Positions 50,399-63,390 of a stretch of DNA of 64,000 nt are shown piece after piece. The notes beneath the pieces were generated by a model. The model was given only the letters and a program-made list of their open reading frames with translations. It did not search any database and had not been told where the DNA came from. Position numbers and translations under genes: made by a program. Source of the stretch: a virus. How positions within the stretch are numbered: the stretch's first letter is position 1; each line of letters opens with the position of its first letter. The stretch spans positions 62,001 through 126,000 of the IMG/VR virus record IMGVR_UViG_3300023174_000050, one strand, 5' to 3'.

Positions 50399-50871
50399 TG
50401 GACAATCTTTACTACAAATATATAAAACTAGTATCAGGGGATGGTATAATTTGTACTACCTTTGATAACTATGAAAATTTATATGATTTAAAAACCATAA
50501 AGGTATCAACCCCTGTGGTATTAAATCCTATTCGCATCCCTAGGGGAGATGTTTTAGTAGAATCTTACATAATGTATCCTTGGTTTAGTTTTTCAGAAGA
50601 AACAGAATATACATTACCCACAACGCAAATTTTATTTGCAGTGAATATTAAAGAAACTTTAAAGAAAAATTATTTAACTTATCTTTCTAATAGAGAAGAT
50701 GAGGGTGAAGATGAACTTATAGACGATGATGAATTTGAAGAAGATGAAGAACTTTTTAATGCACTTTTAAATACCCTAGGAGATGAAATACATGAAGACA
50801 AAGAAAACCAAGAATCCGGAGACGGATCTAATATTGAAAGAGTTGGAAGAACTACAAGAAGACTCCACTAA
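50395..50871 (+). CDS. Conserved T4-like protein between uvsW and gp55
   Basis: A 158-aa protein found beside gp55 in marine T4-like phages. The N-terminal 95 residues are beta-type ('KYIKLVSGDGIICTTFDNYE', 'PVVLNPIRIPRGDVLVESYI', 'MYPWFSFSEETEYTLPTTQI'), a layout that resembles an Sm/Hfq-like barrel, though I cannot confirm it. Residues about 105-150 are strongly acidic. It overlaps the uvsW stop (ATGA) and its 3' 80 bases are shared with the start of gp55 in another frame. A role in RNA or transcription control is possible but unproven. Confidence 0.55.
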   Translation: MMDNLYYKYIKLVSGDGIICTTFDNYENLYDLKTIKVSTPVVLNPIRIPRGDVLVESYIMYPWFSFSEETEYTLPTTQILFAVNIKETLKKNYLTYLSNREDEGEDELIDDDEFEEDEELFNALLNTLGDEIHEDKENQESGDGSNIERVGRTTRRLH

Positions 50872-51421
50872 AACTAAACAACCCGCGCATTACGTAGATA
50901 ACAAAAAATTCTTAGCTGCTCTTATAGATTATAAAGCAAGTATAGATGCGGCTCGCGCAGAAGAAAAACCTACCCCACAGGTACCCAAATATATCGGCGA
51001 ATGCTTTATAAAAATTGCTACTCATTTATCGTATAAATCTAATTTTATAAATTATACTTTTAAAGATGATATGATTTCAGATGGAATTGAAAATTGTCTA
51101 ACTGCAGCTACAAAATTTGATCCAGCCAAATCATCAAATCCATTTGCATACTACACTCAAATTATTTACTTTGCCTTTATTCGCAGAATACAAAAAGAGA
51201 AAAAACATCAGGCAACCAAATACAAAATTATTGAGAATTTAGATTTAGATTCCATTATTCAAAATAGTGATGATTCGGATGCAAGTAGACAACTTGTAGA
51301 CTATTTGAAAAAACAATTGGACAATATTGATCCTGAGAAACGGGAAACTCCCTCAGAAACCAAAACAAGAAAAAGAAAATTAACAGAAAAAGATCAAACT
51401 ATTGTTGACTTCATGAACTAA
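50792..51421 (+). CDS. gp55: Late sigma factor gp55
   Basis: The sigma-like factor that directs host RNA polymerase to TATAAATA late promoters, with gp33 as co-activator. Landmarks are 'PAHYVDNKKFLAALIDYKAS', 'YIGECFIKIATHLSYKSNFI', 'ISDGIENCLTAATKFDPAKS' and 'PFAYYTQIIYFAFIRRIQKE', the region-2-like core. T4 gp55 is 185 aa. Start chosen at ATG 50792: the AGGAG at 50778-50782 abuts the upstream in-frame ATG (50783) but is well spaced for this one. It overlaps the preceding gene by 80 bases. Confidence 0.92.
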   Translation: MKTKKTKNPETDLILKELEELQEDSTKTKQPAHYVDNKKFLAALIDYKASIDAARAEEKPTPQVPKYIGECFIKIATHLSYKSNFINYTFKDDMISDGIENCLTAATKFDPAKSSNPFAYYTQIIYFAFIRRIQKEKKHQATKYKIIENLDLDSIIQNSDDSDASRQLVDYLKKQLDNIDPEKRETPSETKTRKRKLTEKDQTIVDFMN

Positions 51422-51464: not shown

Positions 51465-51743
51465 ATGAATGATTCTAAAAAAGAAGTCATGCTTATTCTT
51501 CAAGAAGAATGCGCAGAAGTGACACAGGCAATCTCAAAATGTTTACGTTTTGGAATAGATGGTGAATATAATGGTGCTACTAATCGAGAAAGATTGACTG
51601 AGGAAATCGGTGATCTTATAGCAATGATTGAACTATGCTACGATAACGACATTGTAGATTACTTACAAGTCAAAGAAGCACAGCATAGAAAATTTGATAA
51701 ATTAAAAAAATGGTCTACAATATATGAAACTGAAAATATCTGA
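51465..51743 (+). CDS. mazG: MazG-like pyrophosphohydrolase (short)
   Basis: A 92-aa all-alpha NTP pyrophosphohydrolase half-domain. The metal motifs are 'LQEECAEVTQAISK' (ExxE at residues about 13-17) and 'TEEIGDLIAMIELC' (ExxD). Marine T4-like phages widely carry MazG, thought to adjust nucleotide or alarmone pools in the host. First gene after the promoter at 51405; its stop region overlaps queE by 20 bases. Confidence 0.85.
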   Translation: MNDSKKEVMLILQEECAEVTQAISKCLRFGIDGEYNGATNRERLTEEIGDLIAMIELCYDNDIVDYLQVKEAQHRKFDKLKKWSTIYETENI

Positions 51744-52569
51744 ATTATTTTATAGTATACAAGGTGAGGGTCGCTTTATGGGCGTCCCTTCTATCTTTTT
51801 AAGAACCTTTGGTTGCAATTTTACTTGCGGTGGTTTTGGAATGCCAAAGGGACAAATGAGTGAAGAAAGGTCAAAAATAAATGCAACATCTTTTAAGAAT
51901 TATCGGGATCTTCCTTTGGTCGATACTGGGTGCGATAGCTACGCTAGTTGGGATGTCAATTTTAAGCATCTTAGTCCCGTTATGGACATTCAAAGTATCG
52001 TTACAAGAATATTAGCAGAGTTACCGCACAAAGAATGGAAAGATGAGCATCTAGTAATTACTGGGGGCGAACCTTTATTAGGATGGCAAAAAGCATATCC
52101 CGATTTATTGGAATATAAAGGAATGCGAGATCTTGCCGAGCTTACTTTTGAAACTAATGGTACTCAAATGTTAAGTGCAGATTTTGAGGAATATTTATTT
52201 CAAGATTGGACTAGATTTGGTCGCAGATATAGTAATCTAACATTTTCGGTTTCTCCTAAATTATCTGTATCTGGGGAGAAATGGGAAGACGCAATTAAAC
52301 CAGATGTTGTGTCTCAATATCAAAGTGTAGGATATACCTATTTGAAATTTGTAGTAGCAACAAAAGAAGATGCAGAAGAAGCAGAGCAAGCAGTAAATGA
52401 ATATCGTAAAAAAGGTTTTGGCGGTCCTGTTTATCTTATGCCTCTTGGTGGCACCGAGCAGTTGTACTCTCTTAATAATCGGGCGGTGGCAGAATTGGCA
52501 TTGCGAAAAGGTTGGAGGTATTCCGATAGATTACAGATCCCATTGTTTAAGAATGCCTGGGGAACATAA
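51724..52569 (+). CDS. queE: 7-carboxy-7-deazaguanine synthase QueE
   Basis: A radical-SAM enzyme that converts 6-carboxy-tetrahydropterin into 7-carboxy-7-deazaguanine. 'YSIQGEGRFMGVPSIFLRT' is the QueE start, 'GCNFTC' gives Cys31 and Cys35, and the third cysteine appears only after a 34-residue insertion, in 'DTGCDSYASWD' (Cys70), where normal QueE reads C-D-T-x-Y-A-W-D. 'LVITGGEPLL' is the SAM-binding GGEP motif. At 281 aa it is longer than cellular QueE (about 220). The insertion is typical of T4-like phage forms. The gene overlaps mazG and precedes folE by 64 bases. Confidence 0.85.
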   Translation: MKLKISELFYSIQGEGRFMGVPSIFLRTFGCNFTCGGFGMPKGQMSEERSKINATSFKNYRDLPLVDTGCDSYASWDVNFKHLSPVMDIQSIVTRILAELPHKEWKDEHLVITGGEPLLGWQKAYPDLLEYKGMRDLAELTFETNGTQMLSADFEEYLFQDWTRFGRRYSNLTFSVSPKLSVSGEKWEDAIKPDVVSQYQSVGYTYLKFVVATKEDAEEAEQAVNEYRKKGFGGPVYLMPLGGTEQLYSLNNRAVAELALRKGWRYSDRLQIPLFKNAWGT

Positions 52570-52633: not shown

Positions 52634-53314
52634 ATGTCATACAACAAAACAAAAACTGACCCTGAACTTGGTCTAAAGGTTCACGAACATCTTGTCAAAA
52701 TGGGTGTTGAAACGCCATATGAAGATAATGATATAGATCGCAAAATTAAAATTGAACTTATAGAAAAAGCTTTTAGTACAATTATGCGAACACTCGGATT
52801 GAATTTATCTGATGATAGTTTAATGGAAACTCCTAATCGTGTTGCTAAGATGTATGTTAACGAAATCTTTTGGGGTTTAGATTACGATGCTTTTCCAAAA
52901 TGTACAACCGTCGATAACAAGATGAAGTATAATGAAATGGTATGCGAGCGTAATATTAATGTACAATCCAATTGCGAGCATCACTTCGTAGTTATTGATG
53001 GGCTTGCTACTGTGGCATATGTTCCTAAAGATAAAGTTTTAGGTCTTTCTAAAATTAATCGTATTGTAGAATATTTTAGTAAGCGTCCTCAGATTCAGGA
53101 AAGATTGACTGAACAAGTATTTCATACATTACAATATATTCTTGATACAGAGGATGTTGCTGTTATGATTGATGCACAACACTATTGCGTTAAGAGCCGA
53201 GGAGTTGAAGATACTGGTAGTTCTACAGTTACAGTAAGATTAGGCGGTGGATTTAAAAATGATCCTGCTGCTAGAAATGAATTTTTAAGTATTGCAAGAA
53301 TGGGTAAAAAATGA
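52634..53314 (+). CDS. folE: GTP cyclohydrolase I FolE
   Basis: Makes 7,8-dihydroneopterin triphosphate from GTP, the first step toward 7-deazaguanine (and folate). Zinc ligands are Cys114 and His117 in 'SNCEHHFVV' and Cys185 in 'AQHYCVKSRGVED'; 'ETPNRVAKMY', 'GLSKINRIVEYFSKRPQIQE' and 'RLTEQV' complete the family pattern. Length of 226 aa equals cellular FolE. Upstream gap (52570-52633) holds a CATAAATA late-like box and a GGAAGGA SD. Together with queE and the queD-like gene it supplies the modified base precursor. Confidence 0.93.
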   Translation: MSYNKTKTDPELGLKVHEHLVKMGVETPYEDNDIDRKIKIELIEKAFSTIMRTLGLNLSDDSLMETPNRVAKMYVNEIFWGLDYDAFPKCTTVDNKMKYNEMVCERNINVQSNCEHHFVVIDGLATVAYVPKDKVLGLSKINRIVEYFSKRPQIQERLTEQVFHTLQYILDTEDVAVMIDAQHYCVKSRGVEDTGSSTVTVRLGGGFKNDPAARNEFLSIARMGKK

Positions 53315-53820
53315 CAGTTAATATAATGGTTGACTTAGAGACAATGTCAACAAGATCACATGCAGCCATTTGTTCAATTGGTGCAGTAAAATTTGAAGGT
53401 AAAGAAATACTTGATACTTTTTATTGCACTGTGGATATTAAAACTTGTAAAGATGCAGGAATGCATATTTCAAAAGATACCGTTAAGTGGTGGTCAGAAC
53501 AAAATAAAGAAGCACTACGAGAACTTACTCGTAACAATATTCCTTTGGATGAGGCATTAACAAGTTTTGAGGAATGGTTCGGTCCTAAGAGTTTGCCTGT
53601 ATGGGGCAATGGTGCAGTGTTTGATAATACTATTTTAGCCAATGCATATTTTAACACTGATAGAGAACCACCTTGGAAATGTTGGGATGATCGTTGCTAT
53701 AGAACAGTTAAGGCATTATTCCATTGGGTGCCTGCAGATGCAAGAGAAGGTGTTTATCATAATGCCTTAGATGATGCAATGCACCAAACTAAACATCTAA
53801 TTAAAATATTAGGTGAATAA
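53311..53820 (+). CDS. DEDD 3'-5' exonuclease (DexA/Rv2179c-like)
   Basis: A 169-aa exonuclease. 'IMVDLETMSTRSHAAICSIG' gives the D-x-E motif (Asp8, Glu10), 'LPVWGNGAVFDNTIL' the second Asp, and 'YHNALDDAMHQTKHLI' the His/Asp pair, so all DEDD metal ligands are present. The layout is the small Rv2179c-type exoribonuclease/DexA fold. It overlaps folE and the following glycosyltransferase, so it is co-translated with the modification genes, but it may simply work in nucleic-acid turnover. Confidence 0.8.
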   Translation: MTVNIMVDLETMSTRSHAAICSIGAVKFEGKEILDTFYCTVDIKTCKDAGMHISKDTVKWWSEQNKEALRELTRNNIPLDEALTSFEEWFGPKSLPVWGNGAVFDNTILANAYFNTDREPPWKCWDDRCYRTVKALFHWVPADAREGVYHNALDDAMHQTKHLIKILGE

Positions 53821-55187
53821 TGAAAACTTATCATAAGCGTATTGCCTTTTGTTTAAGTGATCAACATACTATTCCTCATGGTGGTCTAGGGCAATTTGCC
53901 AAATCCTTTATTGAGAATTTTGTTCCGCTTGGATATAAAGTAGATATTATATCTGATAAACCTACATCCAATATTGACTTCAAAGCGTATCTAGAAAGTC
54001 AAGGTGCAAATTTTGTTTATCCTTCGGATGTTCGACCATATAGTACACATACCAAAACATTCATGTTTGAGGATTCCTATAACTTTGAAAAGATGAGTAA
54101 TTTTAGAGATGCTATGATGAAAGCTCTAAACACAAATCTATATGATATTATTATTTGTAATACATTAGAATCCTTTCCGGGGATTTATGCTTTAAACATT
54201 CACAAATCAATTCAAGTTATTTACTATACTCACAATGAAAGTATGGTGTTCTTAGATGATAGAACATGGAAGAATGAATTTACAGAATCATTTAATGAAT
54301 TGTTCAATGCATTAATGAAGGTCAAAGGTATAACCATTGGTACACAAACTCTAAGAAATAATTACGAACTTCAAGCACATGGTATTACTAACTCATATGA
54401 ACTTCCTATTCCAATGACTGAAAAAAGTTTATTGGTCGAACATAATAAACCAAGAGAGGGTGTTTTATGGATTGGTCGTTGGGAACCAAGAAAGAATCCC
54501 GAGGAGTTTATTCGTGTAATTAAAGAAACAGGATTGCCTGCAAAAGTAATTACTAATACTAATGGTGCCAAAAAATTTGAAGAAGCCCTAAAAGCAATAG
54601 GTGCTAAATATGAAATAAGGATAGGTGTATATGGTCAGGAAAAAGTTGACTTTATAACAAGTGCTCGAGTTGCATATAATCCTGCAATTAGAGAAAGTTT
54701 TGGATTAGCATTTTATGAATGTATGGGTCATTTACCTACTGTTGCTATAACAGGTATGTCCTGGTTAGATAACTTTGGCAGACACTGGTATTTTTGTGAG
54801 GATAAGAAAAATATCCCATCTTTAATAACTAAACTATATGAAGATTTTGAAAAGTCTGAAGTTTGGTATAGTAAAAATCCATTACATAATATTATTACAC
54901 AACATGAAATGGGTATACAAGCATGGATAGATATTTTTAATTCGTTCAAACCGGTCGAATCAAATTCTATCAGAGCAACGATTAATGAATATTCGGAAAT
55001 TGAATATTCCGAGTTTATTAAAATACTAAATAGGAAAGATTTGTCTATAGATGATGTTAAATCTGTATTGACAAATAAGTACAAATATAATATAATTTAT
55101 ACTGATACGAGCACATACCTATCAAAAGATCCAAACTTTGTACCTAAAGAAAAAGAAACAACTAATTTAGAAAGTCTATTCGCATGA
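53820..55187 (+). CDS. GT-B glycosyltransferase with clamp-motif-like C-terminus
   Basis: A 455-aa GT4-type transferase. The N-terminal Rossmann half has 'HGGLGQFAKSFIENFVPLGY'; the donor half has 'VLWIGRWEPRKNPEEFIRVI' and 'NPAIRESFGLAFYECMGHLP' (the E-x7-E type donor motif). Residues about 380-445 form an added helical tail, ending in 'NLESLFA'. The next gene, dpdA, ends 'SLEDLFA'. Such L-x-x-L-F peptides resemble sliding-clamp-binding tails, and T4 alpha-glucosyltransferase is known to contact the clamp gp45. DNA glycosylation is therefore a reasonable hypothesis. Its start overlaps the exonuclease stop (TAATGA). Confidence 0.75.
   Translation: MKTYHKRIAFCLSDQHTIPHGGLGQFAKSFIENFVPLGYKVDIISDKPTSNIDFKAYLESQGANFVYPSDVRPYSTHTKTFMFEDSYNFEKMSNFRDAMMKALNTNLYDIIICNTLESFPGIYALNIHKSIQVIYYTHNESMVFLDDRTWKNEFTESFNELFNALMKVKGITIGTQTLRNNYELQAHGITNSYELPIPMTEKSLLVEHNKPREGVLWIGRWEPRKNPEEFIRVIKETGLPAKVITNTNGAKKFEEALKAIGAKYEIRIGVYGQEKVDFITSARVAYNPAIRESFGLAFYECMGHLPTVAITGMSWLDNFGRHWYFCEDKKNIPSLITKLYEDFEKSEVWYSKNPLHNIITQHEMGIQAWIDIFNSFKPVESNSIRATINEYSEIEYSEFIKILNRKDLSIDDVKSVLTNKYKYNIIYTDTSTYLSKDPNFVPKEKETTNLESLFA
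55068..55096 (+). promoter_or_regulatory. Consensus sigma-70 promoter before dpdA
   Basis: TTGACA (55068-55073), 17 bp, TATAAT (55091-55096), exact in both boxes. It lies in the last codons of the glycosyltransferase, 87 bases before the dpdA start, and could give dpdA extra early transcription. Confidence 0.65.
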
Positions 55188-56473
55188 GCAAAATTTTAGA
55201 ATATGTTATATCTGGTCCTGCATATTTGCGATTAGGTGCAGAACAATGTAATGACCCCGAAACCTTGCAGATGATTCTAGACTTAATTAATAAGACAGTA
55301 CATAAAAAGAACAACCATGAATTTTCTTTATTATATAATGGTTTTACAGAAAAGAATTTCGGTAAAAAATTACAAAAATTTAGACCTGCTATTAAAAATA
55401 TTCATGCTGACTCTGGTGGTTTGCAGATTATTACGCGCGGTCTCCAAAATACGCCTGAGACTCGTAATAAGGTTTATGAGAATCAAGGTGGTTTTGCTGA
55501 TATAGGAATGGCATTTGATGAGATTCCCGTTAAGTCTACTTCTGCAAGTGGCACATCTGCAAAGATTGATACCAAGCGTAGATATGTTGATACGGAAAAT
55601 TTTGAGTCGTATGCGAGAGCAACAGGCAAGAATGTTAAAGATCAAATTTTAAAATTTGATTCTATGAAAAGTAATTGTAGACCCTTTGCTATTTTACAGG
55701 GTTCAGGTGCAGACACTTATGCCAAATGGGCAGAATGTATGTTGGATGAGATTCCAAAAGAACTACATTCTCGCATTGGCGGTGTGGCTATGGGATCAGC
55801 TGCGTTAGGTATGGGGCCACTTGAAGATGTTAAACGAGCATTTTATGTTAATGCTGTTCCATTTGAGAGACCATTTCATTTGCACGTATTGGGAGTTGGG
55901 GCACTTAAACGTATTTTACCTTATCTATTATTTAGTCAAACTGGTCTATATGAAGGCGTAGATATTTCGTATGACTCTACTACACATTCTATGTCATTAG
56001 ATAATGGATTATTTTATTTCTCACACTGCAAGAAAAATAGTCCAAGTGATTATGGCGGTTCTTCTGTTAAGATGGGAAGAGAATATTCTAACATCTATAG
56101 AACAGTAACTGAAGAAATTAATAACGTATGCGGAACAGACTATACTCCAGAACAATATCATAAACTAATGAATATTGCAGTAGGCGAGTATATTGAAAAG
56201 GGTGGAAAATTTATAGATGTGATGAAAGCGCGTCTATCTTTTATTCTAACTAATGTTCATAATTTTACAATGGATGTTTCTGAACTAATGAATTCTAAGG
56301 AAAACTTCTTAAGATTCTGCAGAGATAAAAATTGTGAGAATGAATATTCTACATTATTTGACGTAAAAACCACAGAGGATTTTCTATACTGGGAAAAGCA
56401 TGTTGGTAAATTTATGGATTCGGAGCCAGTCAATTCTGTAGCTCCATCATCACTAGAGGACTTATTTGCATGA
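55184..56473 (+). CDS. dpdA: DNA-guanine transglycosylase DpdA (TGT-like)
   Basis: Predicted to swap guanine in DNA for a 7-deazaguanine. The 429-aa protein has the TGT barrel pattern: 'NIHADSGGLQIITRG' (Asp76, the general-base position), 'IGMAFDEIPV' (second Asp), 'FAILQGSG' (Gln), 'IGGVAMGSAALGMG' (Gly loop), and 'YEGVDISYDSTTH' with the likely nucleophile Asp260 or Asp264. I see no bacterial-TGT C-x-C-x-x-C zinc motif. The C-terminus 'SLEDLFA' mirrors that of the upstream glycosyltransferase. It overlaps that gene (ATGA) and the following T-fold gene. QueE, FolE and QueD-like genes nearby support DNA rather than tRNA modification. Confidence 0.8.
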   Translation: MSKILEYVISGPAYLRLGAEQCNDPETLQMILDLINKTVHKKNNHEFSLLYNGFTEKNFGKKLQKFRPAIKNIHADSGGLQIITRGLQNTPETRNKVYENQGGFADIGMAFDEIPVKSTSASGTSAKIDTKRRYVDTENFESYARATGKNVKDQILKFDSMKSNCRPFAILQGSGADTYAKWAECMLDEIPKELHSRIGGVAMGSAALGMGPLEDVKRAFYVNAVPFERPFHLHVLGVGALKRILPYLLFSQTGLYEGVDISYDSTTHSMSLDNGLFYFSHCKKNSPSDYGGSSVKMGREYSNIYRTVTEEINNVCGTDYTPEQYHKLMNIAVGEYIEKGGKFIDVMKARLSFILTNVHNFTMDVSELMNSKENFLRFCRDKNCENEYSTLFDVKTTEDFLYWEKHVGKFMDSEPVNSVAPSSLEDLFA

Positions 56474-56862
56474 GTATGTTTACATTAAATAAAAGTTATA
56501 TCTGGGTAACCTTTCGTAAAGAAGGTATCCATAAGTATCCTGCTGCCGCAACTGATCCAAAGTTGGCTACAGGCGATTGGTTGGATGTTTCCTTTTTAGG
56601 TACGCCTCATAGGCATATTTTTCATTTTAAAGTTGAAATGCAAGTGTTTCATGATAACAGAGATGTGGAATTTATTCAGGCAAAGCGTATTATGGAACGA
56701 TGGTATTCTGATGGCACATTACAATTAGATCATAAATCATGCGAAATGATGGCAAGAGAATTGTATGCCAAATGTCTTGAGCAATGGCCCTCAAGATGTT
56801 ATACTATAGAAGTATCAGAAGATGGTGAGAATGGTTGTAGACTTGTTTTTGAGGAAAGATAA
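56470..56862 (+). CDS. T-fold (QueD/PTPS-like) conserved phage protein
   Basis: A 130-aa protein widespread in marine T4-like phages, usually left as hypothetical. The residues look like a 6-pyruvoyl-tetrahydropterin synthase/QueD fold: H-x-H at 47-49 in 'GTPHRHIFHFKVEMQVF', 'LQLDHKSCEMM' (Asp-His at residues 87-88) and 'IEVSEDGENG' near residues 113-122, in the place of the catalytic Glu strand. The catalytic Cys before H-x-H is missing, so the reaction may differ from QueD. It overlaps dpdA (ATGA) and the next glycosyltransferase, placing it inside the deazaguanine block. Confidence 0.6.
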   Translation: MSMFTLNKSYIWVTFRKEGIHKYPAAATDPKLATGDWLDVSFLGTPHRHIFHFKVEMQVFHDNRDVEFIQAKRIMERWYSDGTLQLDHKSCEMMARELYAKCLEQWPSRCYTIEVSEDGENGCRLVFEER

Positions 56863-58043
56863 TGGGTAAATTATATTATATGGGTTTAGAGCCCTATGAA
56901 GGTAGATACACACTACAGTTGCAGCAATGGAACGAGGCAGCATTTAAGCGTCGTGGTATTGATTATGAAATTATTCATGGTGATACTTTAGATGATACTA
57001 AAGCTATTGTTACAGGACAAGTTCTTGATGCACATGGTCGCAGTTATTATTCTTTAACACAGATGGCGAATCTTGTTAAGAAAATGAAGGCAGGAGAAAT
57101 TACTTGGGAGGATAAAATTTTCTTTGAAGATATGTTTACTCCCGGTATTGAGGCATTGCCATATATTATGGATCAGGTTGAATGGCAATATAAACCTCAG
57201 GTATATGTTAGATGCCTTGCACAATCTATTGATCCCGACGATTTTCTCCATGTACATGGAATGAATAGATGGATGTCTTTATATGAGAAGATGACTATTG
57301 AGTTTGCAACTGTTCTTGCTTCCAATGAAGAAATGGTTGCCCATATGAAAATAGCAGGATGGGAAGTTCCAATTTATAATATTTCAGGATTGGCATTTGA
57401 CAAAAATGAAGTTCAAAGTCGTGTTGCAGAAATTAAACCATTCATTAATCGTAAAAAGCGAGTGGTGTTTGCTGCAAGATTTGATCAAGAAAAACAACCC
57501 GGTTTCTTTATGGATTTGGTAGAAGAATATGGTCAAGAACATAGAGATGTGGAATTTGCTGTTTTATCGGGTGGACCTTTACGTAGCAATGCGGAGCATT
57601 ATTTGGAAAGAGCAAGAGAATTAGAAAAGACTGCTAATTTTAAAATATACGAAAATCTTAAAAAGAATGAATACTATGAATTGCTTGCCGATTCTAGAGT
57701 ATTATTTAATTGTGCTTTGCAGGATTGGGTAAGTAATACAGCATCGGAAGCAGATTCACTGGGTACAAATTGTTTATATCCTGCGTATCGTTCTTTCCCC
57801 GAGACATTTGCTAATGATAATGAATGTTTATATATTCCTTGGTCTATGGAAGATGCTAAAGAAAAATTAGATAAACTATTAGTTACTCCTAGAAAAAATA
57901 TGGGTAAGTTATCAGACTGGACATCTGGTACTATTGATAGATGTCTAGATATTATGTTTCCGGATGCAGAGTTTGATTTAAGCTATCAGTGGTATAGAGG
58001 TGCAAATGATTATAGAAACTACACAAAAGAATCCAAATACTAA
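56862..58043 (+). CDS. Second GT-B glycosyltransferase
   Basis: A 393-aa GT-B transferase. 'VVFAARFDQEKQPGFFMDLV' is the start of the donor domain, followed by 'FAVLSGGPLRSNAEHYLERA' and 'VLFNCALQDWVSNTASEADS', where Glu at the ADS segment takes the donor-binding place. The N-terminal half ('MGLEPYEGRYTLQLQQWNEA') begins unusually directly with acceptor-type sequence. It is co-transcribed with dpdA and the epimerase, and overlaps the epimerase gene by 38 bases. It has no clamp-like tail ('TKESKY' end). Sugar and acceptor unknown. Confidence 0.7.
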   Translation: MGKLYYMGLEPYEGRYTLQLQQWNEAAFKRRGIDYEIIHGDTLDDTKAIVTGQVLDAHGRSYYSLTQMANLVKKMKAGEITWEDKIFFEDMFTPGIEALPYIMDQVEWQYKPQVYVRCLAQSIDPDDFLHVHGMNRWMSLYEKMTIEFATVLASNEEMVAHMKIAGWEVPIYNISGLAFDKNEVQSRVAEIKPFINRKKRVVFAARFDQEKQPGFFMDLVEEYGQEHRDVEFAVLSGGPLRSNAEHYLERARELEKTANFKIYENLKKNEYYELLADSRVLFNCALQDWVSNTASEADSLGTNCLYPAYRSFPETFANDNECLYIPWSMEDAKEKLDKLLVTPRKNMGKLSDWTSGTIDRCLDIMFPDAEFDLSYQWYRGANDYRNYTKESKY

Positions 58044-59046
58044 AGTTATCGTAACAGGTGCCGCCGGTTATATCGGTGGCGCTATTTGTATCGAACTTAA
58101 AAAACAGGGTTATACTGTTATTGGAGTTGATCGAAGAAAGCTACCAAAGCATCTTGAAAAGTATGTAGATACTTTTGTCAATGAATGTTTTACTCACCCG
58201 TTTTCCTTAGAACATCTTGAGAGTAATCCCATTGCAGTTATACATTGCGCAGGAACAAGTTTAGTTGGTCCAAGTATAGAAAATCCTTCGGAATATTATG
58301 ATAACAATGTAGCTAAAACTCTAAAGTATTTAGATTATATTCGTCGTTGGTCATCTATTACCAAATTTATTTTTAGTAGTAGCGCATCTGTTTATGGATC
58401 ACCTGATACCGCAGTTATATTTGAAGGAACAAGAACAGAACCCATTTCTCCATATGGTGAATCTAAATTAATGACAGAGAAAATGTTACATTGGTTTGAA
58501 AAGGCATATGGATTAAATTATGTGTCGTTTAGATACTTCAATGCCTGTGGTGCAGTTGAAGGTGGGCTACATGGACAAGAACCAGGGGCAACGCATATCC
58601 TTGCTAGATTATTTGAAGCTGCAATGTCAAAAGAAGATTTTACTCTGAATGGTGTAAATTTTCCTACACCTGATGGAACGTGTGTCAGAGATTATATTCA
58701 TGTTACTGATATTGCCAAAGCACATATCTTGGCTATTGAGGAAAATATCAAAGGGATATATAATATAGGATCAATAAAAGGTTATTCTAATTTAGAAATT
58801 TTTACGAAGGTTGAAAATTATCTAATAGATGAAGAGTTATTACATGATGGTATTATAATGCATGTCGAAAAAGCACGCGAAGGTGATCCCGCAATGTTAG
58901 TTGCAAATTCTGATAGATTACAAAAAGAATCTTCGTGGAAACCTGAAAGAAATATTGATACAATTATAGATGATCTACATGCATGGTATCTTTCGCCTGC
59001 ATATGAGAAACTACAAAAGAGGTCTCCGGCATTCACCCCTCTCTAA
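58006..59046 (+). CDS. NAD-dependent sugar epimerase, GalE-like
   Basis: A 346-aa short-chain epimerase that would interconvert UDP-sugars (for example UDP-glucose and UDP-galactose). 'VIVTGAAGYIGGAICIEL' holds the G-x-x-G-x-x-G NAD motif, 'SSSASVYGSPD' the catalytic Ser, 'SPYGESKLMTEKML' the Y-x3-K pair, and 'RYFNACGAVEGGLHGQEPGA' the GalE substrate region. Start at ATG 58006 with AGAGG 57996-58000 upstream; a GTG at 58000 is the alternative. It overlaps the preceding transferase, so donor and transferase are made together. Confidence 0.85.
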   Translation: MIIETTQKNPNTKVIVTGAAGYIGGAICIELKKQGYTVIGVDRRKLPKHLEKYVDTFVNECFTHPFSLEHLESNPIAVIHCAGTSLVGPSIENPSEYYDNNVAKTLKYLDYIRRWSSITKFIFSSSASVYGSPDTAVIFEGTRTEPISPYGESKLMTEKMLHWFEKAYGLNYVSFRYFNACGAVEGGLHGQEPGATHILARLFEAAMSKEDFTLNGVNFPTPDGTCVRDYIHVTDIAKAHILAIEENIKGIYNIGSIKGYSNLEIFTKVENYLIDEELLHDGIIMHVEKAREGDPAMLVANSDRLQKESSWKPERNIDTIIDDLHAWYLSPAYEKLQKRSPAFTPL

Positions 59047-59086
59047 ATATTCTGCATGTCATCAAACTTACTCAAGGAGGCAAGAG

Positions 59087-59563
59087 ATGACAAAATTTAT
59101 CTCAACAAAAACTTATAAACAAATAGGACCCGTAGCATATAGACAATGGAGAGCAGATAGTCACTGCAATCTAATTCATGGTTATGCTTTATCTTTTCAT
59201 TTCGAATTCGAATGTGATACTTTAGATGCTCGCAACTGGTGTATGGACTTTGGAGGATTAAAAGATCTAAAACATAATCTAGAAGATTGGTTCGACCATA
59301 CATTACTTGTAGCAGAAGATGATCCTAAACGTGAAGAATTACTACACTTAGGTAAAATTGGTCTTGCTAAAATTACAGAAGTTGAAAAGACAGGATGTGA
59401 AGGCATTGCAGATTTTTTATATGAATATGTAAATACAATTTATTTACCAATGTATGGTAAAACAGAAGCTGAAAGAATCTGGTGCTGCAAGGTTGAAGTA
59501 CGAGAAACAGATTCTAATATGGCAATGCGCGTAGGTCACAGGGAAGATAATGAATTCCAATGA
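59087..59563 (+). CDS. queD: 6-carboxy-tetrahydropterin synthase-like QueD
   Basis: Forms the pterin substrate of QueE from the FolE product. The 158-aa protein has 'ADSHCNLIHGYALSFHFEFE' (His26, Cys27, His31; the usual third zinc His is Tyr33), 'WCMDFGGLKDLKHNLEDWFD' with Asp70-His71, and 'CCKVEVRETDSNMAM' with the catalytic Glu strand. This HGY form is a known branch of the PTPS family. Start is ATG 59087 with a strong AAGGAGG SD; the longer frame upstream is not protein-like. It is followed by an overlapping DUF2452 gene. Confidence 0.8.
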   Translation: MTKFISTKTYKQIGPVAYRQWRADSHCNLIHGYALSFHFEFECDTLDARNWCMDFGGLKDLKHNLEDWFDHTLLVAEDDPKREELLHLGKIGLAKITEVEKTGCEGIADFLYEYVNTIYLPMYGKTEAERIWCCKVEVRETDSNMAMRVGHREDNEFQ

Positions 59564-61080: not shown

Positions 61081-62795
61081 TAAGATTTACGAATGTTAGA
61101 TGGAAAAATTTCTTATCCACTGGTGCGCAATTCACAGAAGTAAAATTAGATAAAACAACTACTACACTTATCGTAGGTGAAAATGGTGCAGGTAAAAGTA
61201 CCATTCTTGATGCTATTTGTTTTTGTTTATTCAATAAACCTTTTAGGAATATTAATAAACCTCAGTTGATGAATAGTATCAATGGTAAAAATTTACAGGT
61301 GGAATTAGAGTTTTCCATTGGACCAAAGGATTATAAAATTGTTCGAGGCATTAAGCCTGGTATATTTGAAATCTATGTAAACGGCTCGTTATTAAATCAA
61401 GATGCTGCATCAAAAGATTACCAAAAATATCTTGAGGATGCTATTCTAAAATTAAACTATAAATCATTTACTCAGATTGTTATTCTTGGCAGTGCATCTT
61501 TTACACCGTTTATGCAGTTGCCGTTAAGTCACAGAAGAGAAATTATTGAAGACATTTTAGATATCCAAATTTTTACTGTGATGAATTCTGTTCTTAAAGA
61601 TAAAAATATTGAAATCAAAACTAAAATAACAGACATTGATACTAAAATTGAACTTGGCAAAAACAAAGTTAAATTGCAACAGCAATACATTACAACATTA
61701 GAGAATGACAAACAAAGGAAGGTAGAGGATGTCCAAAAGCGAATACTTGAATCGACTGAAGAAATATCACAGCTTACATTGTTGGTCGACGCTGAAAAAG
61801 AATCGGAAGGAAATCTTAAATCCTCGATACAAGACTCCCCTGAGAAACGTAACCGATATACGGAAATGGGAACTTTACTTAGAAAACTTACCGAGCGAAT
61901 TAAGACACAGGAAAGCAGTATTCAATTTTACCACGAACATGACCTTTGTCCGACATGCAACCAAGATTTGGATGCAAATCTCAAACACTCAGCAATCTCA
62001 CTTCATACACATAAACTCGAGGAAGTACAAGCAGCAATACAAGCCCTTACCGTTCAACTTAATGATACCGAAACTAGACTTAATGAGATTGCTGATATCG
62101 AATCGAAAATCTCTGAACATCAGGGCAATATCATACAACTCAATTCAAGAATCATTGCCGGGCAAAGTTACATTCATAAACTCCAGAGCGAATTGGCAAG
62201 AGACACTACAGATACAACAAACCTGGAAGATGAAAAGAGGAAGCTCAAAACTCTGGCAAAAGAAGTCGTCGCGCATGCAGATGATAAAACGAAGCTTAAT
62301 GAAGATAAACATTACCTCGATATCGCATCCGTACTTCTTAAGGACACCGGCATTAAGACTAAGATCATCCGTCAGTATCTGCCCGTAATTAATAAACTTG
62401 TAAACAAGTATTTACAGGCAATGGATTTCTTTTGTCACTTTGAATTGGATGAAACATTTAATGAATCAATTAAATCTAGACATCGAGATGAATTCTCATA
62501 CGCATCATTTAGTGAGGGTGAGAAACAACGTATTGATTTAGCATTGTTATTTACATGGAGAACAATTGCCAAGATGAAGAATTGTGCTAGCACAAATCTC
62601 TTGTTACTTGATGAGGTTTTTGATTCTTCTTTAGATGCTAACGGTACAGATTACGTGATGAACTTAATAAATACGTTAGGCGAAGAGACTAATGTATTTG
62701 TTATTAGTCACAAGGGAGATCTTCTTTTTGATAAATTTAGAAGTATTATAAAATTTGAGAAGTATCAAAACTTTTCTAGAATACAAGGAAATTGA
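61077..62795 (+). CDS. gp46: Recombination ATPase gp46
   Basis: SMC/Rad50-like ATPase partner of gp47. Walker A is 'IVGENGAGKSTILDAI', the zinc hook 'LCPTCNQDL' (Cys291, Cys294) interrupts long coiled coils, 'SFSEGEKQRIDLALLF' is the ABC signature and 'LLLLDEVFDSSLD' Walker B. Length 572 aa (T4: 560). The coiled-coil part, roughly 61730-62400, uses visibly more C/G at third positions than both ends and leaves a second frame open for 219 codons, which may mark recombination with another phage. Confidence 0.95.
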   Translation: MIRFTNVRWKNFLSTGAQFTEVKLDKTTTTLIVGENGAGKSTILDAICFCLFNKPFRNINKPQLMNSINGKNLQVELEFSIGPKDYKIVRGIKPGIFEIYVNGSLLNQDAASKDYQKYLEDAILKLNYKSFTQIVILGSASFTPFMQLPLSHRREIIEDILDIQIFTVMNSVLKDKNIEIKTKITDIDTKIELGKNKVKLQQQYITTLENDKQRKVEDVQKRILESTEEISQLTLLVDAEKESEGNLKSSIQDSPEKRNRYTEMGTLLRKLTERIKTQESSIQFYHEHDLCPTCNQDLDANLKHSAISLHTHKLEEVQAAIQALTVQLNDTETRLNEIADIESKISEHQGNIIQLNSRIIAGQSYIHKLQSELARDTTDTTNLEDEKRKLKTLAKEVVAHADDKTKLNEDKHYLDIASVLLKDTGIKTKIIRQYLPVINKLVNKYLQAMDFFCHFELDETFNESIKSRHRDEFSYASFSEGEKQRIDLALLFTWRTIAKMKNCASTNLLLLDEVFDSSLDANGTDYVMNLINTLGEETNVFVISHKGDLLFDKFRSIIKFEKYQNFSRIQGN

Positions 62796-62796
62796 A

Positions 62797-63390
62797 ATGG
62801 CAAATGAATGGCAATTACAGACGCACCAAGTTAACGCATATTGTTATTACTCGGGCATATTTGACGATGATATGATTAATAGCATTGTAGAACTTGGGGA
62901 CAAACTGGAAAAAGGGCCTGCTCTTGTTGGCGGGGATTTTGAGAAAGCTGGCGGTACAAATGAAAAAATTCGAAAAACAGAAATTGGCTGGATTCCTACC
63001 ACCGAAGAAAACGCTTGGCTATTTAGAAAATTGACAGACGTTATTCTTCAAGCAAATACGCAATGGTTTGGATTTGATCTTAATCATATAGAAAATTTGC
63101 AATACTCAGTATATAACAAGGGCGACTTCTATGAAAAGCATGTTGACCATCACTTTCAAGGTGCAGGTCAATATCCTAGAAAATTAAGTTTTACCTTACA
63201 ATTAACAGATCCTGCAGAATATAAGGGCGGGGAAACAATGCTAATTACTGCACAGGACCCTTTTGCTATTCCTAAAGAAAAGGGAACTTTAACATTCTTT
63301 CCATCTTATACTTTACACGAAGTTAAACCTATTACAAAAGGAACTCGTAAAGCATTAGTAGGATGGATACATGGACCAAGGTGGAAATAA
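62797..63390 (+). CDS. 2OG-Fe(II) oxygenase, PKHD-type
   Basis: A 197-aa oxygenase often found after gp46 in marine T4-like phages. Iron ligands are His115-x-Asp117 in 'DFYEKHVDHHFQ' and His174 in 'TFFPSYTLHEVKPI', with Arg184 in 'KGTRKALVGWIHGP' for 2-oxoglutarate. 'RKLSFTLQLTDPAEYKGGET' is the usual core. Start at ATG 62797, one base after the gp46 stop region, with AAGGAA well spaced; the longer frame begins inside gp46. Its substrate (protein, DNA or small molecule) is unknown. Confidence 0.8.
   Translation: MANEWQLQTHQVNAYCYYSGIFDDDMINSIVELGDKLEKGPALVGGDFEKAGGTNEKIRKTEIGWIPTTEENAWLFRKLTDVILQANTQWFGFDLNHIENLQYSVYNKGDFYEKHVDHHFQGAGQYPRKLSFTLQLTDPAEYKGGETMLITAQDPFAIPKEKGTLTFFPSYTLHEVKPITKGTRKALVGWIHGPRWK

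Follow-up and report, generated by a model that had tools for sequence, protein, structure and literature searches.

The closest described systems concern clamp-binding tails on the one side and DNA deazaguanines on the other. In T4, the C-terminal tails of gp43, gp55 and gp33 are interchangeable ligands of gp45, and the gp43 tail is a gp45 ligand in both T4 and RB69 (PMC2988020). The T4 alpha-glucosyltransferase pulls down gp45 (the beta-glucosyltransferase does not), and the alpha/beta glucose ratio of T4 does not depend chiefly on clamp binding (PMC13216743). The DNA of Vibrio phage nt-1, which is related to KVP40, contains dPreQ0, dADG and dG+, the modification being sparse (dPreQ0 amounts to about 0.1% of G), and the nt-1 DpdA2 has been linked to the DNA deazaguanine (PMC6884629).

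The locus described here lies in a 64-kb window (the whole stretch of DNA analysed, to which all coordinates refer) of a 190,131-base virus record, and encodes a glycosyltransferase (GT1) and a DpdA with the same kind of C-terminal tail. It differs from the T4 case in that two DNA-base-modifying enzymes bear the tail besides the polymerase, their binding to gp45 being predicted. GT1 and the T4 alpha-glucosyltransferase are alike in being phage glycosyltransferases of DNA with a link to the sliding clamp (PMC13216743), a link that is presumed for GT1; the T4 enzyme acts on hydroxymethylcytosine, whereas no T4-type hydroxymethylase was found in the phage that carries GT1. DpdA is homologous to the DpdA2 transglycosylase of KVP40 and nt-1, which likewise stands beside deazaguanine genes, but in KVP40 DpdA2 has no clamp tail, QueC is present and GT1 is not found beside DpdA2. 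The most similar arrangement is that of the isolate Synechococcus phage BUCT-ZZ01, whose host is the laboratory strain Synechococcus elongatus PCC 7942 and in which GT1, DpdA, a small protein and a second glycosyltransferase occur in the same order and both tails are present; it differs in that FF replaces LF in polymerase, GT1 and DpdA, and its products are annotated as hypothetical proteins only. The virus is a cyanophage-like T4-type phage, and the polymerase-like tails suggest that both enzymes ride the clamp and modify new DNA during copying.

Gene content of the locus

The following features were identified in the window:

51724..52569, + strand: QueE-like radical SAM 7-carboxy-7-deazaguanine synthase (counterpart in the BUCT-ZZ01 cluster annotated QueE)
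52634..53314, + strand: FolE, GTP cyclohydrolase I (PF01227, E=1.1e-61)
53311..53820, + strand: DexA-like exonuclease, immediately upstream of GT1 (PF16473, E=1.6e-46)
53820..55187, + strand: GT1, GT4-like retaining glycosyltransferase of GT-B fold, 455 aa (PF00534, sub-threshold, E=1.6e-4)
55164..55184, + strand: C-terminal clamp-type tail of GT1, NLESLFA (its L, E, L and F do not vary among the 32 distinct relatives)
55184..56473, + strand: DpdA, DpdA2-like DNA guanine transglycosylase, 429 aa (phrog_10773, E=1.6e-96)
56450..56470, + strand: C-terminal clamp-type tail of DpdA, SLEDLFA (its L, E, L and F do not vary among the 37 distinct close relatives)
56470..56862, + strand: small conserved protein phrog_17812, adjoining DpdA (E=1.3e-32)
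56862..58043, + strand: GT2, second GT4-type glycosyltransferase, without clamp tail (PF00534, E=1.4e-6)
58000..59046, + strand: NAD-dependent nucleotide-sugar epimerase, start codon uncertain (PF01370, E=1.7e-52)
59069..59563, + strand: QueD-like 6-carboxytetrahydropterin synthase, start set by alignment (PF01242, E=6e-16; phrog_2389, E=1.5e-39)

The AlphaFold model of GT1 is a confident GT-B fold (pLDDT 87.5), its top Foldseek match is the retaining GT4 enzyme MshA (3c4q, E=5e-13), and the EX7E glutamates E292 and E300 are invariant. Residues 441-455 are modelled with low confidence, as a linker followed by a short helix (450-454), which is what a docking peptide should look like. DpdA is about 30% identical to KVP40 DpdA2 (tblastn E about 1e-45), which together with its relatives is annotated as queuine tRNA-ribosyltransferase. 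The residues D76-S-G-G-L-Q (the TGT-type motif) and D264 are invariant, and profile searches of Pfam, NCBIfam and PDB sequences returned no match for DpdA.

The QueE-like protein, for which there was no Pfam match, starts with FYSIQGEG and ends with PLFKN[EA]WGT, and a protein of the same kind occupies the same place in the BUCT-ZZ01 cluster. GT2 is kept in the operon and is 65% identical in BUCT-ZZ01. The phrog_17812 small protein occurs in BUCT-ZZ01, ACP17, X1, Paride and clade B (see below), beside DpdA in every cluster phage read; its C-terminal part has a weak likeness to QueD (39 columns aligned by hhalign, E=3e-4), and it may act on the deazaguanine as a T-fold enzyme. The gene of a 2OG-Fe(II) oxygenase (62755-63390, phrog_61, E=1e-38) follows the modification cluster at a distance of a few kilobases.

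QueC (PF06508) was not found in this phage, BUCT-ZZ01 or ACP17, whereas it was detected in KVP40, pf16 and Moby. Candidates for the inserted base are 7-carboxy-7-deazaguanine, one of its derivatives, and preQ0 completed by a host QueC. The T4-type dCMP hydroxymethylase (PF00303) was not found in this phage, in BUCT-ZZ01 or in the clade A records tested, T4 gp42 being detected as a positive control, and an enzyme of this family was present in two of the three clade B records tested. Because FolE, QueD and QueE are present and PF00303 was not found, 7-deazaguanine is the only modified-base route visible in this phage, and it is the likely sugar acceptor of GT1.

The shared tail and its rarity in the genome

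The genes of GT1 (53820-55187) and DpdA (55184-56473) overlap by 4 bases and encode unrelated proteins (GT-B fold versus DpdA2-like transglycosylase). GT1 ends ...KEKETTNLESLFA and DpdA ends ...SVAPSSLEDLFA, so that the first-pass annotation was right in reporting like endings on two unrelated proteins (final residues NLESLFA and SLEDLFA). It had also named the phage DNA polymerase as a further possible bearer of the tail, and the phage's own gp43 (an 829-aa, T4-type DNA polymerase; phrog_262, E=0) indeed ends TLEGLFG, to be compared with SLDFLFG in T4 gp43. The nearest polymerases to this gp43 are those of cyanophages (Synechococcus phage Sf-CH5, 49%). The phage also has genes for the clamp gp45 (phrog_223, E=8e-65) and for the loader subunits gp44 and gp62.

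The whole 190-kb phage was scanned for C termini of the form L[DE]x[LF]F plus 0-2 further residues, using a greedy non-overlapping set of 253 ORFs of at least 60 aa. Four of these matched (GT1, DpdA, gp43 and a hydrophobic ORF of 142 aa ending LKLEKLF), and 0.05 chance matches were expected from shuffling of the last 60 residues of the ORFs. In the loci of relatives, a looser tail pattern occurred in 11 of 1507 dereplicated other ORFs, and all 11 were a polymerase, a second type of DpdA, a protein replacing GT1, or gp55. A chance likeness was ruled out by the shuffles and by these ORF counts, and a general C-terminal bias by the absence of the tail in the other BUCT-ZZ01 cluster proteins and in nearly all other ORFs of the phage. 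This phage's late sigma factor, gp55 (50783-51421), ends TIVDFMN, a much weaker tail than SLDFLY of T4 gp55, and its relatives end NPIIDITD or SFIDTMF.

Conservation of the tail in relatives

Relatives were collected from IMG/VR (80 GT1 loci and 60 DpdA loci), the close ones being referred to as clade A. In clade A, GT1 ends [STNG]LE[SDA]LFx in every complete sequence and DpdA ends [ST]LE[DEN]LFx in every sequence, and the polymerases of 16 further records end [TS]LEGLF[GSAE]. The L, E, L and F of the tail are each written with 2-4 codons (among 32 distinct GT1 and 37 distinct DpdA sequences), and the GT1 linker just upstream is variable, with an entropy of up to 2.95 bits; the DpdA linker is less variable. 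Since the tail residues are invariant while their codons change and the GT1 linker varies, selection acts on the tail as protein, and we regard the shared tail as real and under selection. The overlapping genes of GT1 and DpdA are co-conserved in the clade A records.

The expectation that homologues would keep the tail was borne out in part. It is present in 37/37 distinct close relatives of DpdA and in four of the six distinct isolate groups, but is missing from KVP40 DpdA2 and degenerate in pf16 DpdA2. The tail is consequently not needed for base exchange, and tethering is an added feature, perhaps serving dense modification. The sparse modification of nt-1 agrees with the tail as an aid to dense modification, a correspondence that fits but proves nothing. 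Remote relatives of GT1 in Erwinia jumbo phages and X1 (27-28% identity) have no tail, and no DpdA was seen beside them in the stretches read.

Tail forms across lineages

The form of the tail varies with the lineage, and the polymerase varies with it. In the isolate BUCT-ZZ01, the polymerase ends STLDDFFS, GT1 SLEDFFND and DpdA SLDSFFD, with FF for LF in all three. Polymerase and DpdA end SLDDLFE and TLDELFE in ACP17, SLESLFG and SLEELFG in X1, and SLEDLFGW and SLDDLFG in Moby.

A more distant group, clade B, has a GT1 that is 45-49% identical and a polymerase that is about 25-30% identical, together with FolE, QueD and QueE-like genes, the small protein, GT2 and an epimerase. No DpdA2 match was found in clade B phages. 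They encode a protein of 490-546 aa with DSGGFQ, probably a very divergent DpdA, which hhalign places on the DpdA2 profile over 288 columns (E=1e-5, probability 82%). The clade B polymerases end TFDDLFSFG or similarly, GT1 ends GFDLFSFT, VFDDLFEFQ, LFEF or LFEGL, and the divergent DpdA either has KFNELFEF(V) as its ending or carries this motif with an acidic extension behind it. The latter, non-terminal form was seen in several clade B phages (L088:3341-4888, L083:3-1607 and L061:3228-4868). Like tails inside one family partly reflect common descent, yet parallel forms occur in unrelated families.

In Pseudomonas phage Paride (L199:3692-11323), the divergent DpdA adjoins the polymerase, and after it come a GT2-like protein, the small protein and a QueE-like gene. 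The Paride polymerase has the ending HFDSLFGW; in the Paride DpdA, SFNSLFDV stands internally, before an acidic extension.

Replacement of GT1 by a protein that keeps the tail

In seven contigs (L122, L123, L124, L126, L127, L130 and L149), the place of GT1 between DexA and DpdA is taken by a 300-aa protein that has no BLAST similarity to GT1 and ends SSLESLFL. Relatives of this protein in the phages Phosso (E=1e-9) and DSL-LC06 (6e-8) are annotated as glycosyltransferases, and the Phosso protein, which ends TQLSDLFDFG (the Phosso polymerase ends TTFNDLFTF), has a weak match to the TET-associated glycosyltransferase family (PF20691, E=0.026). The AlphaFold model of the 300-aa protein is poor (pLDDT 46.5), and for this reason its identity as a glycosyltransferase-like protein is tentative.

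At the level of sequence, the match to gp43, the synonymous codon changes, the lineage-specific forms and the survival of the tail through the replacement of GT1 give good support to the first-pass reading of the ending as a clamp tail. Its precedent, the T4 alpha-glucosyltransferase, stands as regards the gp45 pull-down (PMC13216743) and fails as regards the tail, for the T4 enzyme ends SSFCFKEQFDIITK, where a SLDxLF-type tail is absent.

Proposed mechanism and alternatives

In the pathway that we infer (clamp binding, order of action, acceptor, sugar, linkage and action at the moving fork alike), FolE, QueD and QueE would lead to 7-carboxy-7-deazaguanine, a recognisable phage QueC step being absent. 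GT1 and DpdA would each dock on gp45 by a short linear motif of the gp43-tail kind, LE(S/D)LF, carried on a flexible linker; the docked DpdA would replace guanine in new DNA by the deazaguanine, and the docked GT1, as a retaining GT-B enzyme, would put a sugar on the inserted base, both reactions following behind the fork. We judge it highly probable that both enzymes dock on the clamp. A glycosylated 7-deazaguanine as the product is reasonably probable, and is plausible because the pathway is present, a T4-type hydroxymethylase was not found and the operon is conserved. That DpdA and GT1 dock on gp45 via a polymerase-type peptide and exchange and then glycosylate a base in new DNA is the best explanation, to which we give fair though not high confidence. 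An even chance is given to the fuller picture of a clamp-organised line, with both enzymes on the same gp45 ring behind the fork, a glycosylated 7-deazaguanine new to DNA, and a tail that is a portable module kept through enzyme exchange.

If the docking is right, GT1 might still place its sugar on another DNA base while DpdA works separately on the same clamp. The retention of GT1 in clade B beside a DpdA of another type and the PF00303 enzyme in two of the three clade B records tested speak for this, whereas PF00303 was not found in this phage, BUCT-ZZ01 or the tested clade A records (T4 gp42 being detected as control) and the overlapping genes of GT1 and DpdA are co-conserved in clade A; we consider it unlikely. 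It is distinctly improbable that GT1 glycosylates a small molecule, e.g., a pterin of the FolE/QueD branch, and that the tail only localises GT1 or serves otherwise. A cyanobacterial tetrahydrobiopterin glucosyltransferase is indeed among the fold matches of GT1 (9v0l, E=1.7e-9, rank 32) and FolE and QueD are encoded close by, but many other GT4 enzymes are better fold matches, and an enzyme of soluble substrates would have no reason to carry a polymerase tail, nor the tail to survive an enzyme swap.

The partner of the tail might also be another than gp45, such as the beta clamp of the host or a different protein of the replisome, since the Phosso protein carries QLSDLF and the motif also resembles bacterial beta-clamp peptides. 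This is improbable, as gp45 and a loader are phage-encoded, and the tail is shared with gp43, whose tail is the gp45 ligand in T4 and RB69 (PMC2988020). A coincidence of two short C-terminal peptides is hardly credible: the LKLEKLF end of the 142-aa hydrophobic ORF shows that single matches do arise, but the genome expectation is 0.05 matches and the tail is conserved despite codon change, and coincidence is considered refuted by this codon-level conservation, the matching changes in BUCT-ZZ01 and the replacement of GT1 by a protein that keeps the tail.

In the open-access literature, of which the coverage is incomplete, we found no reports of a clamp-docked DpdA or of a glycosylated 7-deazaguanine in DNA; taken singly, there are precedents for clamp-binding tails, for DpdA and for clamp-linked DNA glycosyltransferases, and it is their combination that appears to be new. 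Docking of DpdA and GT1 on gp45, if true, would explain how a base-exchange enzyme gains efficient access to newly made phage DNA and would predict a sugar-bearing purine in phage DNA, likely useful against restriction. A tail shared with the polymerase could serve as a simple rule for spotting, in T4-type phages, enzymes that act on DNA and whose function is unknown, and with the isolates BUCT-ZZ01, Moby, ACP17, X1 and Paride the claim is directly testable.

Interrupted genes

The polymerase gene of one relative (record G021, L168-L170) is interrupted, the query matching piecewise with a TAA between the pieces, and that of Paride is also split, around an annotated homing endonuclease. In two loci (L133:3684-4592 and L144:8999-10000), the genes of GT1 and DpdA, which overlap elsewhere, are separated by an ORF on the opposite strand; to the eye, the end of this ORF (GSFSEEHRKKISNSHKKR) resembles a homing-endonuclease DNA-binding motif.
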